Source: a virus. From it: a stretch of DNA of 33,533 nt. Shown one piece after another: positions 27,811 to 33,156 of the stretch. The first letter of the stretch is position 1, and each line of letters opens with the position of its first letter. Below the pieces are notes generated by a model. That model was not told the origin of the DNA. It worked only from the letters and a program-made list of their open reading frames with translations, and ran no database searches. The DNA lies in IMG/VR virus record IMGVR_UViG_3300025879_000055, positions 1-33,533 of that record, one strand, 5' to 3'. Made by a program: the position numbers and the translations under genes.

Positions 27811-27854
27811 GGATAATTGGCTTGTCTTTAAGGATATTTTTTTTAACTTTGTTT

Positions 27855-28409
27855 ATGAGTAAATTTTATACAATTCCAAACACTAACGGTCTTTATGAAA
27901 TCAATGAAGGCTCAGAGATAAGAAGAATAAAGCATAGGGTTAAAAACAACATCAACGGAGGAACTAGGTCGGTTGGTGGTAAGATTCTATCTCAAAAAAC
28001 AAAAAGCAACGGATATAAAGAAGTTGCCCTTTATATTGAGCCACAAAAAGGAGTTATGAGGTATGTTCATAGACTTATGTATCAAACCTTTGTTGGCGAA
28101 ATACCCAGTGGTTATGAGATAAATCATATTAATGGTGATAAATCAGATAATAAAATAACTAATCTTGAGCTTGTCACACCTAGCCAAAACAGACTACATT
28201 CATGGCATGTATTAGGAAATAAAAACCTAAAAGCCATGAAGGGAGAGAATCATCCTAGGGCGATTGTTAGCGAAGACTTTGTAAGAAAAGCAAAAGATCA
28301 ATATAAAAACGGTATAAGCGTAAGAGATATTTACGACAACTGTAAAGAGAAAATTACACTATCTTCATTGAGAAAGATTTGCTATGGGCAAACATGGAGG
28401 CATATATAA
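27855..28409 (+). CDS. HNH homing endonuclease, NUMOD4-like, inserted at a gene 3' end
   Basis: 184 aa from the ATG at 27855; a TTG at 27822 would add only hydrophobic non-conserved residues. The N-terminus FYTIPNTNGLYEINEGSEIRR resembles the NUMOD4 repeat. The HNH core is YVHRLMYQTFVGEIPSGYEI then NHINGDKSDNKITNLELVT, with His72, Asn90-His91, Asn99 and Asn103. The C-terminal helix-turn-helix ends in LRKICYGQTWRHI. It cuts DNA at a target site to spread its own gene. It ends exactly where a second copy of the phosphoesterase 3' end begins. Confidence 0.9.
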   Translation: MSKFYTIPNTNGLYEINEGSEIRRIKHRVKNNINGGTRSVGGKILSQKTKSNGYKEVALYIEPQKGVMRYVHRLMYQTFVGEIPSGYEINHINGDKSDNKITNLELVTPSQNRLHSWHVLGNKNLKAMKGENHPRAIVSEDFVRKAKDQYKNGISVRDIYDNCKEKITLSSLRKICYGQTWRHI

Positions 28410-28922: not shown

Positions 28923-30239
28923 ATGGAAAGAGTATACAATAAGCAGGTCAATGTCTATGATGCTTCCATAAGTCGAATTGATTATATCTTTAAAAACTTT
29001 GAGAGAATATATTTAAGCTTTAGTGGAGGTAAGGACTCTGGCGTTATGCTTAATCTTGTTGTGCAATACATGAAGCGAAACAATATAAAAGACAAGATTG
29101 GTGTAATGGTCATGGATAATGAAGCTAATTACACTTATAGCACTGATTTTATGCTAGAAATATTGGATCAGCACAAAGATTATTTAGACATATATTGGTG
29201 CTGCCTTCCTATTACATTACCATGTACTGTAAGCTCTTACGCAACTGAATGGCAGTGCTGGGGCAATGAAGATCGCTCTTTGTGGATTCAAGATAGACCT
29301 GACAGAGACTATGTTGTTACGTGGGAAAATCACATAGCAAAATATAATATGGACTTCTTCCAAGAGAACATGGACTATTCCGTTTTTTGGGACAAGTTTG
29401 GAGATTGGTATGCTCAAGGGAAGAGTTGTGCTTGTCTAATAGGGATTCGTACTGACGAATCATTAAATAGATTTAGGGCTATAATGAATGATCGAAAGCA
29501 AATGAAGGATGGGCATCAATGGACAAAAAAGAATACAGAATACGTTTACAATTGTTACCCAATATACGACTGGAGGACAGATGACGTGTGGGTTGCCAAC
29601 GGTAAGTTTGATTGGAGGTACAATAAACTGTATGATATATTTTATAAATCTGGTATGTCAATCTATCAAATGAGAGTGGCATCTCCTTTCATGTCAGAGA
29701 GTAAATCAAGTCTTAATATGTATCGAGTTATAGATGGTCAGATATGGAGTCGATTATGTGCAAGAGTTTCAGGAGCAAACTTTATTGCAACCTATGGCAA
29801 GCAATTAACGTATCATTCTTTTAAGCTGCCAGAAGGGCATACATGGAAATCCTTTACAAAGTTTTTACTAGATACCTTGCCAAAAGAGGTTGCTGAAAAT
29901 TTTAAAAACCGATTTATTCAGTCTATAAAATATTGGTGGAGAGTAGGTCGGGGGTTAGATGATTCCACCATAAATGAACTGAAAGAAAATAAAATTGACT
30001 TTAAACTAGGGGAATTAACAAGGCATGGAAACAAAAATAAAAGATGTGTTAGAATGCTGCCTCCAGATCATTTAGACCAATTAAAAAGGCATCCTAGTGA
30101 AGTTACTAGCTGGAAAAGATTTGCAATCACAATACTTAAAAATGATCACACTTGTAAATACATGGGGTTAGCTCCAACTATAGAGCAGGCAAAAAGACAA
30201 AGAGAAATAGCAAACAAATATAAAAACGTAGGAAAATGA
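28923..30239 (+). CDS. ibrA: IbrA-like PAPS-reductase/PP-loop protein (DUF3440)
   Basis: 438 aa. The PP-loop SFSGGKDSG (residues 32-40) binds ATP in adenylylating enzymes of the PAPS reductase/ThiI/DndC group. The conserved GIRTDESLNRFRAI and YPIYDWRTDDVW segments (middle), YKSGMSIYQMRVASPF and the late SWKRFAITILKNDHTCKYMGLA are the DUF3440 signature. Family members occur next to ParB-like IbrB in E. coli and many phages; the substrate is not settled. First gene of a coupled operon (4-bp overlap downstream), preceded by a promoter-like motif. Confidence 0.88.
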   Translation: MERVYNKQVNVYDASISRIDYIFKNFERIYLSFSGGKDSGVMLNLVVQYMKRNNIKDKIGVMVMDNEANYTYSTDFMLEILDQHKDYLDIYWCCLPITLPCTVSSYATEWQCWGNEDRSLWIQDRPDRDYVVTWENHIAKYNMDFFQENMDYSVFWDKFGDWYAQGKSCACLIGIRTDESLNRFRAIMNDRKQMKDGHQWTKKNTEYVYNCYPIYDWRTDDVWVANGKFDWRYNKLYDIFYKSGMSIYQMRVASPFMSESKSSLNMYRVIDGQIWSRLCARVSGANFIATYGKQLTYHSFKLPEGHTWKSFTKFLLDTLPKEVAENFKNRFIQSIKYWWRVGRGLDDSTINELKENKIDFKLGELTRHGNKNKRCVRMLPPDHLDQLKRHPSEVTSWKRFAITILKNDHTCKYMGLAPTIEQAKRQREIANKYKNVGK

Positions 30240-30628
30240 AAGTAAGAACAATTGAGCAAACTAAGGACACAGAAAGAGAGGTTAAGTTTACAGGAGGAAC
30301 AAGCTTTAGACCTGTATTAGCTAAAGATGGACTAGGGTTTTCAGTACACAAAACAGTGGTCGATAAAGGTAGGTGGCATTGGCACTATAAAAATCATTTA
30401 GAAAGCTGTTACTGCATAGAAGGGAAAGGCTTATTACATAACCTAGAAACAGGACAGAGCTTTGAAATAAACCCAGACACAGTATACATGTTAGACAATC
30501 ATGATGATCATGAGTTTGAGGCATTTGAAGAGACTATTTTAATTAGCGTATTTAATCCTCCTATTGTAGGAGATGAATCGCATGACAAAAACGGAAATTA
30601 CAAACTAAAAGAAATAAACAAAAAATGA
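30236..30628 (+). CDS. ectC: Ectoine-synthase-like (EctC) cupin
   Basis: 130 aa, EctC length. The sequence follows EctC: FRPVLAKDGLGFSVHKT, HWHYKNHLESCYCIEGKG, INPDTVYMLDNHDDHEF and ISVFNPPIVGDESHDKNG. Glu56, Tyr84 and His92 correspond, one residue off, to the iron ligands I recall for the Paenibacillus lautus enzyme (Glu57, Tyr85, His93). Thr40, Phe106, Glu114 and His116 also match recalled active-site residues, but the recalled Cys105 is Ser104 and Trp21 is not conserved. EctC cyclises N-acetyl-diaminobutyrate to ectoine. EctA and EctB are absent. It overlaps both neighbours by 4 bp, between IbrA and IbrB. Confidence 0.85.
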   Translation: MKVRTIEQTKDTEREVKFTGGTSFRPVLAKDGLGFSVHKTVVDKGRWHWHYKNHLESCYCIEGKGLLHNLETGQSFEINPDTVYMLDNHDDHEFEAFEETILISVFNPPIVGDESHDKNGNYKLKEINKK

Positions 30629-31152
30629 ACAAGTATCAATCACCTGTATATAATGTAATCGCTGTACCTATAGACAAGGTTCAAGCAAATGACTATAATC
30701 CAAACAGTGTTGCGCCTCCAGAAATGGAGTTATTAGAAACATCTATCTGGGAGGATGGGTATACAATGCCTGTGGTTTGTTTTTATGACGACAAAAACGA
30801 TAAATATATTGTTGTAGATGGGTTTCACAGATATACAGTATTAAAAAACAGCCAAAGGATTTTTGAAAGAGAAAACGGAATGCTTCCAGTTTCTGTGATA
30901 GATAAAGATATATCAGACAGAATGGCTTCTACAATTAGACACAATAGGGCTAGAGGGTCTCATAATATAGAGTTGATGAGTACTATAGTGTCAGAGCTAG
31001 TTGAAATGGGCAAGGGAGATGCTTGGATCTGTAAGCATATCGGAATGAGCAAAGATGAGCTATTAAGAATGAAGCAAATTACAGGCTTGGCAAGCTTGTT
31101 TGCTAATAAGGATTTCTCTGATTCATGGGAGGCAGAGTCCGAACTAGTATGA
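30625..31152 (+). CDS. ibrB: IbrB-like ParB/sulfiredoxin-fold protein
   Basis: 175 aa. The ParB N-terminal fold is visible: VIAVPIDKVQANDYNPNSVA (~11-30), EMELLETSIWEDGYTMPVVC (~33-52), the box DKYIVVDGFHRYTVLK (~58-73, with GFHR) and ISDRMASTIRHNRARGSH (~94-111). A helix-turn-helix follows (VEMGKGDAWICKHIGMSKDE). Such proteins bind DNA and hydrolyse nucleotides or transfer phosphate; IbrB partners IbrA. It overlaps the EctC-like gene by 4 bp and the next by 4 bp (ATGA). Confidence 0.87.
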   Translation: MNKYQSPVYNVIAVPIDKVQANDYNPNSVAPPEMELLETSIWEDGYTMPVVCFYDDKNDKYIVVDGFHRYTVLKNSQRIFERENGMLPVSVIDKDISDRMASTIRHNRARGSHNIELMSTIVSELVEMGKGDAWICKHIGMSKDELLRMKQITGLASLFANKDFSDSWEAESELV

Positions 31153-31586
31153 TCACTCAAGAATATAAGCCGTATTGGGATTGGGAATGCTTTAATAATG
31201 GCATGTGGGAAAACTCTTCTGCAGATAAAACAACCCTACTCAATACGGCTATTGATTTTACATCAAACGCTGATCTTTATGGCGACTACATGGATATAGT
31301 TGTCTTTCAATGGAGAAATACAATGATACATCATTTAACAAATCCTTCAATTAACAAAAAAGCTTTTATAGGTCATTGTGCCTGTTCCTATGCTAGAAAT
31401 TTACCAGAAAGCATCGTAAGAAAGGCATGGAAATATTTAAGCAATAATCAGCAAGACAAAGCAAATGACAGGGCAAATAAAGCATATTTAAAATGGTTGA
31501 GCAATTACAAGAAAGAATTAAAGACTATACAAGCAAATGGGAATCAAGGTGTTATCCAGGAGGAATACCAGATGAAGTTCCTTTAA
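31149..31586 (+). CDS. Unknown protein of the Ibr operon
   Basis: 145 aa from the ATG at 31149, set by ATGA overlap; an ATG at 31125 lies inside ibrB and is less likely. Recognisable blocks are YKPYWDWECFNNGMWE (~7-22), FQWRNTMIHHLTNPSINKKA and GHCACSYARNLPESIVRKAW, then a helical C-terminus. Trp/Cys/His content is high. I recall similar genes beside IbrA/IbrB in other phages, but know no function. It overlaps the following gene by 94 bp. Confidence 0.65.
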   Translation: MITQEYKPYWDWECFNNGMWENSSADKTTLLNTAIDFTSNADLYGDYMDIVVFQWRNTMIHHLTNPSINKKAFIGHCACSYARNLPESIVRKAWKYLSNNQQDKANDRANKAYLKWLSNYKKELKTIQANGNQGVIQEEYQMKFL

Positions 31587-31774
31587 GTATTATTGACAAG
31601 GCTCCATCTTGGAAAAAGATATGTATCTGCATATTAAAAAATGATATGTATTTAACAGGCTTAGGGTATAGCGGATTCACTTCAAAATATTATCATGAAT
31701 TAAAAAGAATAGAGTTGCTCGCTAGAGAATCATCAGGAGGGCAAATAAAAATCCCTTTTGATAGGTGTATATAA
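31493..31774 (+). CDS. Stand-alone copy of the IbrA C-terminal motif
   Basis: 93 aa. Residues ~15-60 contain WESRCYPGGIPDEVPL and APSWKKICICILKNDMYLTG LGYSG, close to SWKRFAITILKNDHTCKYMGLA at the end of the IbrA-like protein of the same operon, and to the (Y)xxGIPDE...SW+R.....LKNDY stretch of full-length IbrA. It may be a split or duplicated terminal domain. The start at 31493 gives a 94-bp overlap with the previous gene; no later ATG would keep the motif. Last gene of the operon. Confidence 0.65.
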   Translation: MVEQLQERIKDYTSKWESRCYPGGIPDEVPLSIIDKAPSWKKICICILKNDMYLTGLGYSGFTSKYYHELKRIELLARESSGGQIKIPFDRCI

Positions 31775-32613: not shown

Positions 32614-33156
32614 ATGAAAGAAATATGGAAAGACATAATAGAATTTAACTCTGAGTATCAAATATCTAATTTTGGTAGAATCAGAAGTAAGGAAGCAGTT
32701 ATTATCAGATCAAATGGCAGACCACACAAAAGAATTAGTAAAATCCTTAAGACAGCTGTAAGTAAAAAGTATAAATACCCACGTGGTGCGGTTTGTGTTA
32801 ATAAGAAAATGAAACCTTACAAGATACACAGGCTTGTAGCTAGATACTTTGTTGCAAACCCTTATGGAAAGCCTGAGGTTAATCACATAGATGGAAACCC
32901 ACAAAACAATCATTACACAAATTTAGAATGGGTTACTAGGCAAGAAAACATAAAACATTGCATTGACAACAACCTTCAAACTGCTTTTAAGGGTGAGGAG
33001 GTTGGAACGTCTATTTTAAAGGAAGATCAAGTAAAGCAAATAAGAAAAGAGTTTAAACCAAGAATTGTAACAAGGTCATTTTTAGCACAAAAATACAATG
33101 TGTCAGAAGCGACAATAAAAGATATTATATACAGAAGGACATGGAGGCACGTGTAA
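32614..33156 (+). CDS. HNH homing endonuclease with NUMOD4, between terS and terL
   Basis: 180 aa. NUMOD4 at residues 3-28 (EIWKDIIEFNSEYQISNFGR). HNH core: YKIHRLVARYFVANPYGKPE (69-88) then VNHIDGNPQNNHYTNLEWVT, with His72, Asn90-His91, Asn99 and Asn103. A C-terminal helix-turn-helix (LKEDQVKQIRKEFKPR, RSFLAQKYNVSEATIKDIIY) ends in RRTWRHV, like the other HNH protein here (GQTWRHI). The last 16 bp overlap the terL start. Known terminase-linked HNH proteins of HK97 type are different; NUMOD domains point to a mobile homing gene. Confidence 0.9.
   Translation: MKEIWKDIIEFNSEYQISNFGRIRSKEAVIIRSNGRPHKRISKILKTAVSKKYKYPRGAVCVNKKMKPYKIHRLVARYFVANPYGKPEVNHIDGNPQNNHYTNLEWVTRQENIKHCIDNNLQTAFKGEEVGTSILKEDQVKQIRKEFKPRIVTRSFLAQKYNVSEATIKDIIYRRTWRHV

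Follow-up and report, generated by a model that had tools for sequence, protein, structure and literature searches.

A recurrent phage cassette linking IbrA and IbrB to an EctC-like cupin, with a possible role in DNA modification

ParB-superfamily proteins are known companions of DNA-modifying enzymes: DndB accompanies DndC (PMC11662687), DpdB accompanies DpdA (PMC12839542), and phage ParBc proteins accompany CmoX and the PP-loop-type ligase CmoY, which adds glycine to carboxymethylcytosine (PMC12783734). In IbrA/IbrB pairs (E. coli IbrAB and YbdN/YbdM; PHROGs 2302 and 2159), an IbrA with a PP-loop and a DUF3440 domain stands beside a ParB-like IbrB. We analysed a 33.5-kb tailed-phage fragment (IMG/VR record IMGVR_UViG_3300025879_000055, 33,533 nucleotides; hereafter the window) that encodes members of the same hidden Markov model (HMM) families within a five-gene cassette. 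Unlike described IbrA/IbrB pairs, this cassette belongs to a separate clade and adds a cupin of the EctC type, an IbrA tail encoded on its own (G5) and a further protein (G4) that also occurs in cupin-free viral cassettes. G4 and G5 are a third and a fourth partner of the IbrA/IbrB system. We hold with high confidence that these genes work as a single functional module.

The cassette shares with DndC/DndB phosphorothioation a phosphoadenosine phosphosulfate (PAPS) reductase-like PP-loop enzyme with a ParB-superfamily partner. However, an Fe-S motif common to all IbrA types is not evident, a DndB family match is lacking, and an EctC-like cupin takes the place of DndD/DndE. By analogy, the 5-glycyl-carboxymethylcytosine pathway of phage CmoX-CmoY-ParBc (PMC12783734) may also be compared, as it combines a PP-loop-type ATP enzyme, a ParBc protein and alpha-amino acid chemistry. 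But IbrA is not AsnB-like, and a CmoA-like gene occurs in only one of 29 cupin-bearing records (locus L066). C5-methyltransferase genes occur in 10 of the 29, and the window carries neither.

Five overlapping genes in the window

The five genes lie on the + strand at 28923-31774, as the initial annotation had described, and are chained by three 4-bp ATGA overlaps (at 30236, 30625 and 31149) and one of 94 bp (31493-31586):

28923-30239, + strand: IbrA, 438 amino acids (aa), PP-loop (SGGKDS) PAPS-reductase-like domain plus DUF3440, 'type C' clade (Pfam PF11922 and PF01507, PHROG 2302, tree)
30236-30628, + strand: EctC-like Fe-cupin, 130 aa, without Trp-21, iron-ligand positions E57/Y84/H92 retained (Pfam PF06339, PRK13290, PDB 5ono, alignment columns, fold)
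30625-31152, + strand: IbrB, 175 aa, ParB/Srx superfamily, DGFHR motif, helix-turn-helix (HTH)-like C-terminal region (PHROG 2159, ParB_N, weak SbnI/ParB matches, motif count)
31149-31586, + strand: G4 (gene 4), 145 aa, new protein family predicted to be all-helical (no Pfam/PHROG family; relatives in viral contigs; model)
31493-31774, + strand: G5 (gene 5), 93 aa, putative stand-alone GIPDE...SWK...ILKND C-terminal tail of canonical IbrA (Pfam DUF3440 positions 138-174; family HMM)

For G4, the mechanical open reading frame starts at 31125, and the ATG at 31149 is most likely the start. The earlier family calls were borne out by Pfam, NCBIfam and PHROG. IbrA matched DUF3440 (PF11922; E = 8.5e-58, 195.5 bits against a cut-off of 25), PAPS_reduct (PF01507; 4e-10) and PHROG 2302 (6e-105), while the cupin matched Ectoine_synth (PF06339; 9.7e-42), PRK13290 (148 bits, cut-off 128) and PDB 5ono (2e-25). 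IbrB matched the ParB-like PHROG 2159 (1e-82) and ParB_N (0.004), with weak PDB matches to SbnI and ParB, of which SbnI was best. A promoter-like motif claimed ahead of the operon turned out to be at chance level, with 13 sites versus 13.4 +/- 4.2 in shuffles. Since the terminase fragment of the window (61% identical) resembles those of Nonlabens phages, a Flavobacteriia-type host seems likely.

Recurrence and inheritance of the cassette

About 110 cupin-bearing loci (about 100 distinct contigs, a few of them fetched twice) contain the cassette genes as a group, in most cases with unchanged order, so the association of the cupin with IbrA/IbrB is not confined to one phage. Most contigs are fragments; counts are lower bounds, and the absence of a gene from a single record is weak evidence. 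Genes for this cupin are present in at least 165 viral contigs, 80 of which were retained, and 187 encode relatives of G4. Among named phages, Pseudoalteromonas phage XCL1123 and two Mycobacterium phages, Nebkiss and Gaia, have the cupin, and XCL1123 and Gaia (gp104) share the gene set of the window; in Gaia, a GIY-YIG-like gene (named so in Nebkiss) sits between IbrB and gene 4. We found IbrA followed by a fused cupin-IbrB, G4 and G5 in 39 fetched loci and the five unfused genes in the order of the window in 24, with reordered forms in further loci. In total, the cupin is fused to IbrB in about 45 of the roughly 100 fetched contigs. Thirty fetched viral loci carry cupin-free IbrB-G4-IbrA cassettes. 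One 5-kb contig (L005, IMGVR_UViG_3300003427_000730) holds the same cassette with proteins identical to those of the window and was excluded from the counts. A scan of bacterial genomes revealed the phage-type cupin in one contig, from a Saprospiraceae metagenome assembly, and DUF3440 scored above cut-off in 3 of 296 sampled Bacteroidota genomes.

In a tree of 128 IbrAs, built with a quick method and with long branches flagged, all 90 cupin-linked rows fell into one clade with no cupin-free row inside (Shimodaira-Hasegawa-like approximate likelihood ratio test 100, stem 0.94). A second group is Streptococcus- and Fusobacterium-phage-like, and a third comprises GIPDE-tailed IbrAs, including that of E. 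coli phage PhiR5_2. The IbrB tree displayed the same three-type split, with a few cupin-type rows falling in between. Pairwise distances of IbrA and cupin correlated at 0.78 (null maximum 0.10), those of IbrA and G5 at 0.73. Within the cassette, mean identity was 70% for IbrA and 73% for IbrB, whereas three neighbouring replication-gene families reached only 21-26%, with distance correlations to IbrA of 0.41-0.52. The contrast between the 70-73% of the cassette proteins and the 21-26% of the neighbours indicates that the cassette travels as a unit between unrelated phages. As judged from these comparisons, it is a horizontally mobile unit among unrelated tailed phages. Two NUMOD4 + HNH_3 genes of homing-endonuclease type flank the cassette in the window (27822-28409 and 32614-33156), and such genes might aid its movement.

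A chance gene cluster is ruled out by recurrence and natural fusions. Together with the single IbrA clade and the distance correlation, these support the initial proposal of one joint system. The cupin had further been regarded as an unexpected insertion between two partners. Its position is as claimed, with IbrB two genes downstream of IbrA in the window, but the cupin does not lie there by chance: it is tied to one IbrA clade and in other phages is often fused to IbrB. These natural fusions couple a cyclase derived from ectoine synthase with a ParB-like partner. Annotators had already labelled the Gaia and XCL1123 proteins 'ectoine synthase/ParB multidomain protein'; in the literature searched, we found no analysis or description of G4, G5, the wider family or the joint system.

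Active-site residues and partner proteins

The predicted model of the cupin is closest in fold to EctC crystal structures (5onm/5ono, 5bxx), with Z-scores of 18-19 versus about 13 for other cupins and 35-40% identity to EctC in the model comparison. It shares the iron ligands and most substrate residues: S23, R25, T40, Y52, E57, Y84 and H92 were retained in all 98 distinct phage cupins and F106 in 97. In contrast to EctC, none of the 98 has Trp-21, with Phe or a gap in most, all carry C59 where the nine EctCs compared have Val, H51 is a new near-invariant residue, and Asn/His-38 is relaxed. Trp-21 is conserved in all 437 EctCs from ect clusters and, somewhat shifted in position, in 145 orphan EctCs, and the W21A variant of EctC keeps 9.7% of its activity (PMC6344544). 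The phage cupins form a clade apart from the nine EctCs (support 100/100), are linked to IbrA, and no fetched locus gave a blastp match to EctA or EctB. We therefore rejected a plain ectoine synthase or ectoine operon, given the loss of Trp-21 and the missing EctA/EctB. The cupin probably still performs EctC-type chemistry on a compound that resembles an alpha-amino acid, but on a different substrate from that of EctC. MT835761 (L004), at first sight a phage EctC, proved to be a bacterial ectoine operon; we discarded it as a candidate and used it as a control. A Marinobacter plasmid carries an orphan ectC (L164:2501-2896) with neither ectA nor ectB in the annotated 5-kb stretch.

In the comparison with the known IbrA/IbrB system, identity to phage IbrA is 31-43%. 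The PP-loop is retained in 127 of the 128 IbrAs, but the C-terminal catalytic motif of CysH, ECGxH, in none, on which ground we rejected IbrA as a CysH PAPS reductase. Phage genes of the IbrA type are usually tallied as sulfur-metabolism 'PAPS reductase', a reading that fails for the viral IbrAs examined. The same residues bear on auxiliary metabolism, in which IbrA would reduce PAPS like CysH and the cupin would make ectoine for the host. Automatic labels (PAPS reductase for PHROG 2302, and ectoine synthase) speak for it; with ECGxH in none of the 128 IbrAs, Trp-21 in none of the 98 cupins and EctA/EctB unmatched in every locus, we consider it highly improbable.

A kinship of IbrA with DndC had also been suggested. 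The PP-loop domain indeed matches DndC models, but only partially and far below the family cut-off (TIGR03183, 22.5 bits, cut-off 290; PADLOC DndC, 34 bits, partial). In the defence library, DndC was its closest match, and DndC and BrxP were those of other IbrAs, all far under full-length family scores. Because cupin-clade IbrAs carry extra invariant cysteines (93, 94, 101, 112 and 279, as compared among IbrAs), sulfur chemistry by them is possible, albeit not required. IbrA might thus transfer sulfur to DNA in the manner of DndC, as phosphorothioate or thio-base, with these cysteines carrying sulfur or an Fe-S cluster. This agrees with the DndC/PAPS-reductase similarity, the clade-specific cysteines and a correlative finding in E. 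coli, where a citR deletion raises expression of ybdN (log2 5.5) and also of the cys regulon (cysH 3.2); among the regulated genes, CitR bound only citR-ybdNM (PMC9068703). However, the cys response may stem from other changes in the mutant, there is no universal cysteine set, and IscS-, DndD- or DndE-like partners are missing among the recurrent neighbours; we regard sulfur transfer as decidedly unlikely.

IbrB had been described as a ParB-fold protein, and its place in the ParB/Srx superfamily stands. Yet its motif, DG[F]HR (DGFHR in 144 of 148 IbrBs), is that of the kinase/NTPase branch and not the GERR of ParB CTPases (GERR/GERA in one). In a fold search with a cupin-IbrB model, the match list was filled by cupins.

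G4 belongs to no Pfam or PHROG family and forms one protein with G5 in two contigs (L047 and L053). The G4-G5 fusion is modelled as all-helical (mean predicted local distance difference test score 90.5) and had no PDB match at E <= 0.001, the weak match list being no evidence for a new fold. G5 matched DUF3440 partially (positions 138-174, E = 2.8e-7), and its family HMM matched the C-termini of IbrAs from Amjad_SA (2e-33), CV-1-33 (2e-27) and PhiR5_2 (3e-26); in cupin-type IbrAs the tail differs from the canonical one and is longer. On these matches, G5 is best read as a detached tail of canonical IbrA. At L061:4074-5336, G5 is fused in frame to a region of about 310 aa without Pfam match that by eye recalls a sliding clamp.

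Genomic setting and candidate functions

Neighbours of the cassette are genes for replication and recombination (DnaB, Erf, YqaJ, RusA, SSB and SF2 helicase), and cupin-free IbrA/IbrB pairs adjoin SNF2 or DEAD helicases. Because of this setting, and because ParB-superfamily proteins recur with ATP-dependent DNA-modifying enzymes, we favour, tentatively, a cupin-bearing ('type C') IbrA/IbrB variant that modifies DNA during infection. That DNA is the target, which reaction takes place and that the phage gains by evading host restriction are all inferred. IbrB, with its predicted ParB/Srx fold and HTH-like region, would bind DNA, and its DGFHR nucleotide site would load or license the complex. 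IbrA, as a PP-loop ATP pyrophosphatase, would consume ATP in activating a group (carbonyl, phosphate or small-molecule). Kept close to IbrB by fusion or translational coupling, the Fe-cupin could cyclise a group resembling an alpha-amino acid with loss of water, or carry out a related step on it, with G4 and G5 as possible scaffold or DNA-docking subunits. In a specific form, a new DNA hypermodification that we regard as quite unlikely, a canonical base would receive an alpha-amino-acid-like group from IbrA, acting under the guidance of IbrB and at the expense of ATP, and the EctC-derived Fe-cupin would close this group to a cyclic amidine by elimination of water. The resulting base would resemble ectoine and shield phage DNA.

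Several points weigh against DNA modification. CmoA and thymidylate synthase/hydroxymethylase genes are rare in cupin-bearing phages, each occurring in one of 29 records, so any base handle would need to be canonical. A general dependence on CmoX/CmoA or on hydroxymethylase/thymidylate synthase was rejected. CxxC is present in one of the 128 IbrAs, and no Fe-S cysteine set is common to all types. Publications on in vivo work label IbrA/IbrB as co-activators of prophage gene expression. Finally, early phage regions hold many anti-defence genes without a DNA-modifying role.

The cassette could likewise serve anti-defence or signalling, with IbrA/IbrB and the cupin acting not on phage DNA but on a tRNA, a host protein, a nucleotide signal or another small molecule, and thereby blocking defence or re-programming the host. 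The mobile cassette lies in early regions of unrelated phages, the alpha-amino-acid-binding residues of the cupin are kept, and the IbrB motif is common to free-serine kinases such as SbnI, its best weak PDB match. The HTH-like C-terminus of IbrB and the helicase/replication linkage, on the other hand, favour a nucleic-acid target, and no metabolite partner enzymes recur nearby; we consider this explanation somewhat unlikely. In line with the co-activator label, which databases and phage records also carry, IbrA/IbrB might instead turn on phage or prophage genes, with the cupin, G4 and G5 tuning the regulator. Deletion of citR in E. coli raises ybdNM and many other genes (PMC9068703), effects that can be indirect. 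The near-universal PP-loop and fully retained cupin active-site residues point to catalysis and render a purely regulatory role unlikely. As two cultured phages, Gaia and XCL1123, carry the long-unexplained IbrA/IbrB pair together with the cupin, a direct test of DNA modification is possible.

Further genes were observed near these loci. In L066, a phage contig, genes for a CmoA-like protein and a CmoX-like C5-methyltransferase with SPPC precede the cassette by about 2.3 kb (L066:710-2385), and a thymidylate synthase/hydroxymethylase-type gene follows directly downstream (L066:7513-8367). A small winged-HTH (HTH_39) gene recurs beside the cassette in 17 loci (for example L127:6070-6261), within 150 bp in 11 of them. 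Cupin-free IbrA/IbrB pairs beside an SNF2/SF2-type helicase are found in Streptococcus, Fusobacterium and Flavobacterium phages (L157:2403-4011, L161:5801-7358 and L162:1920-3451, respectively), each adjoined by a small protein of 107-128 aa that by eye is alike in the first two. IbrA/IbrB, helicase and small protein may possibly constitute a further IbrA/IbrB module.

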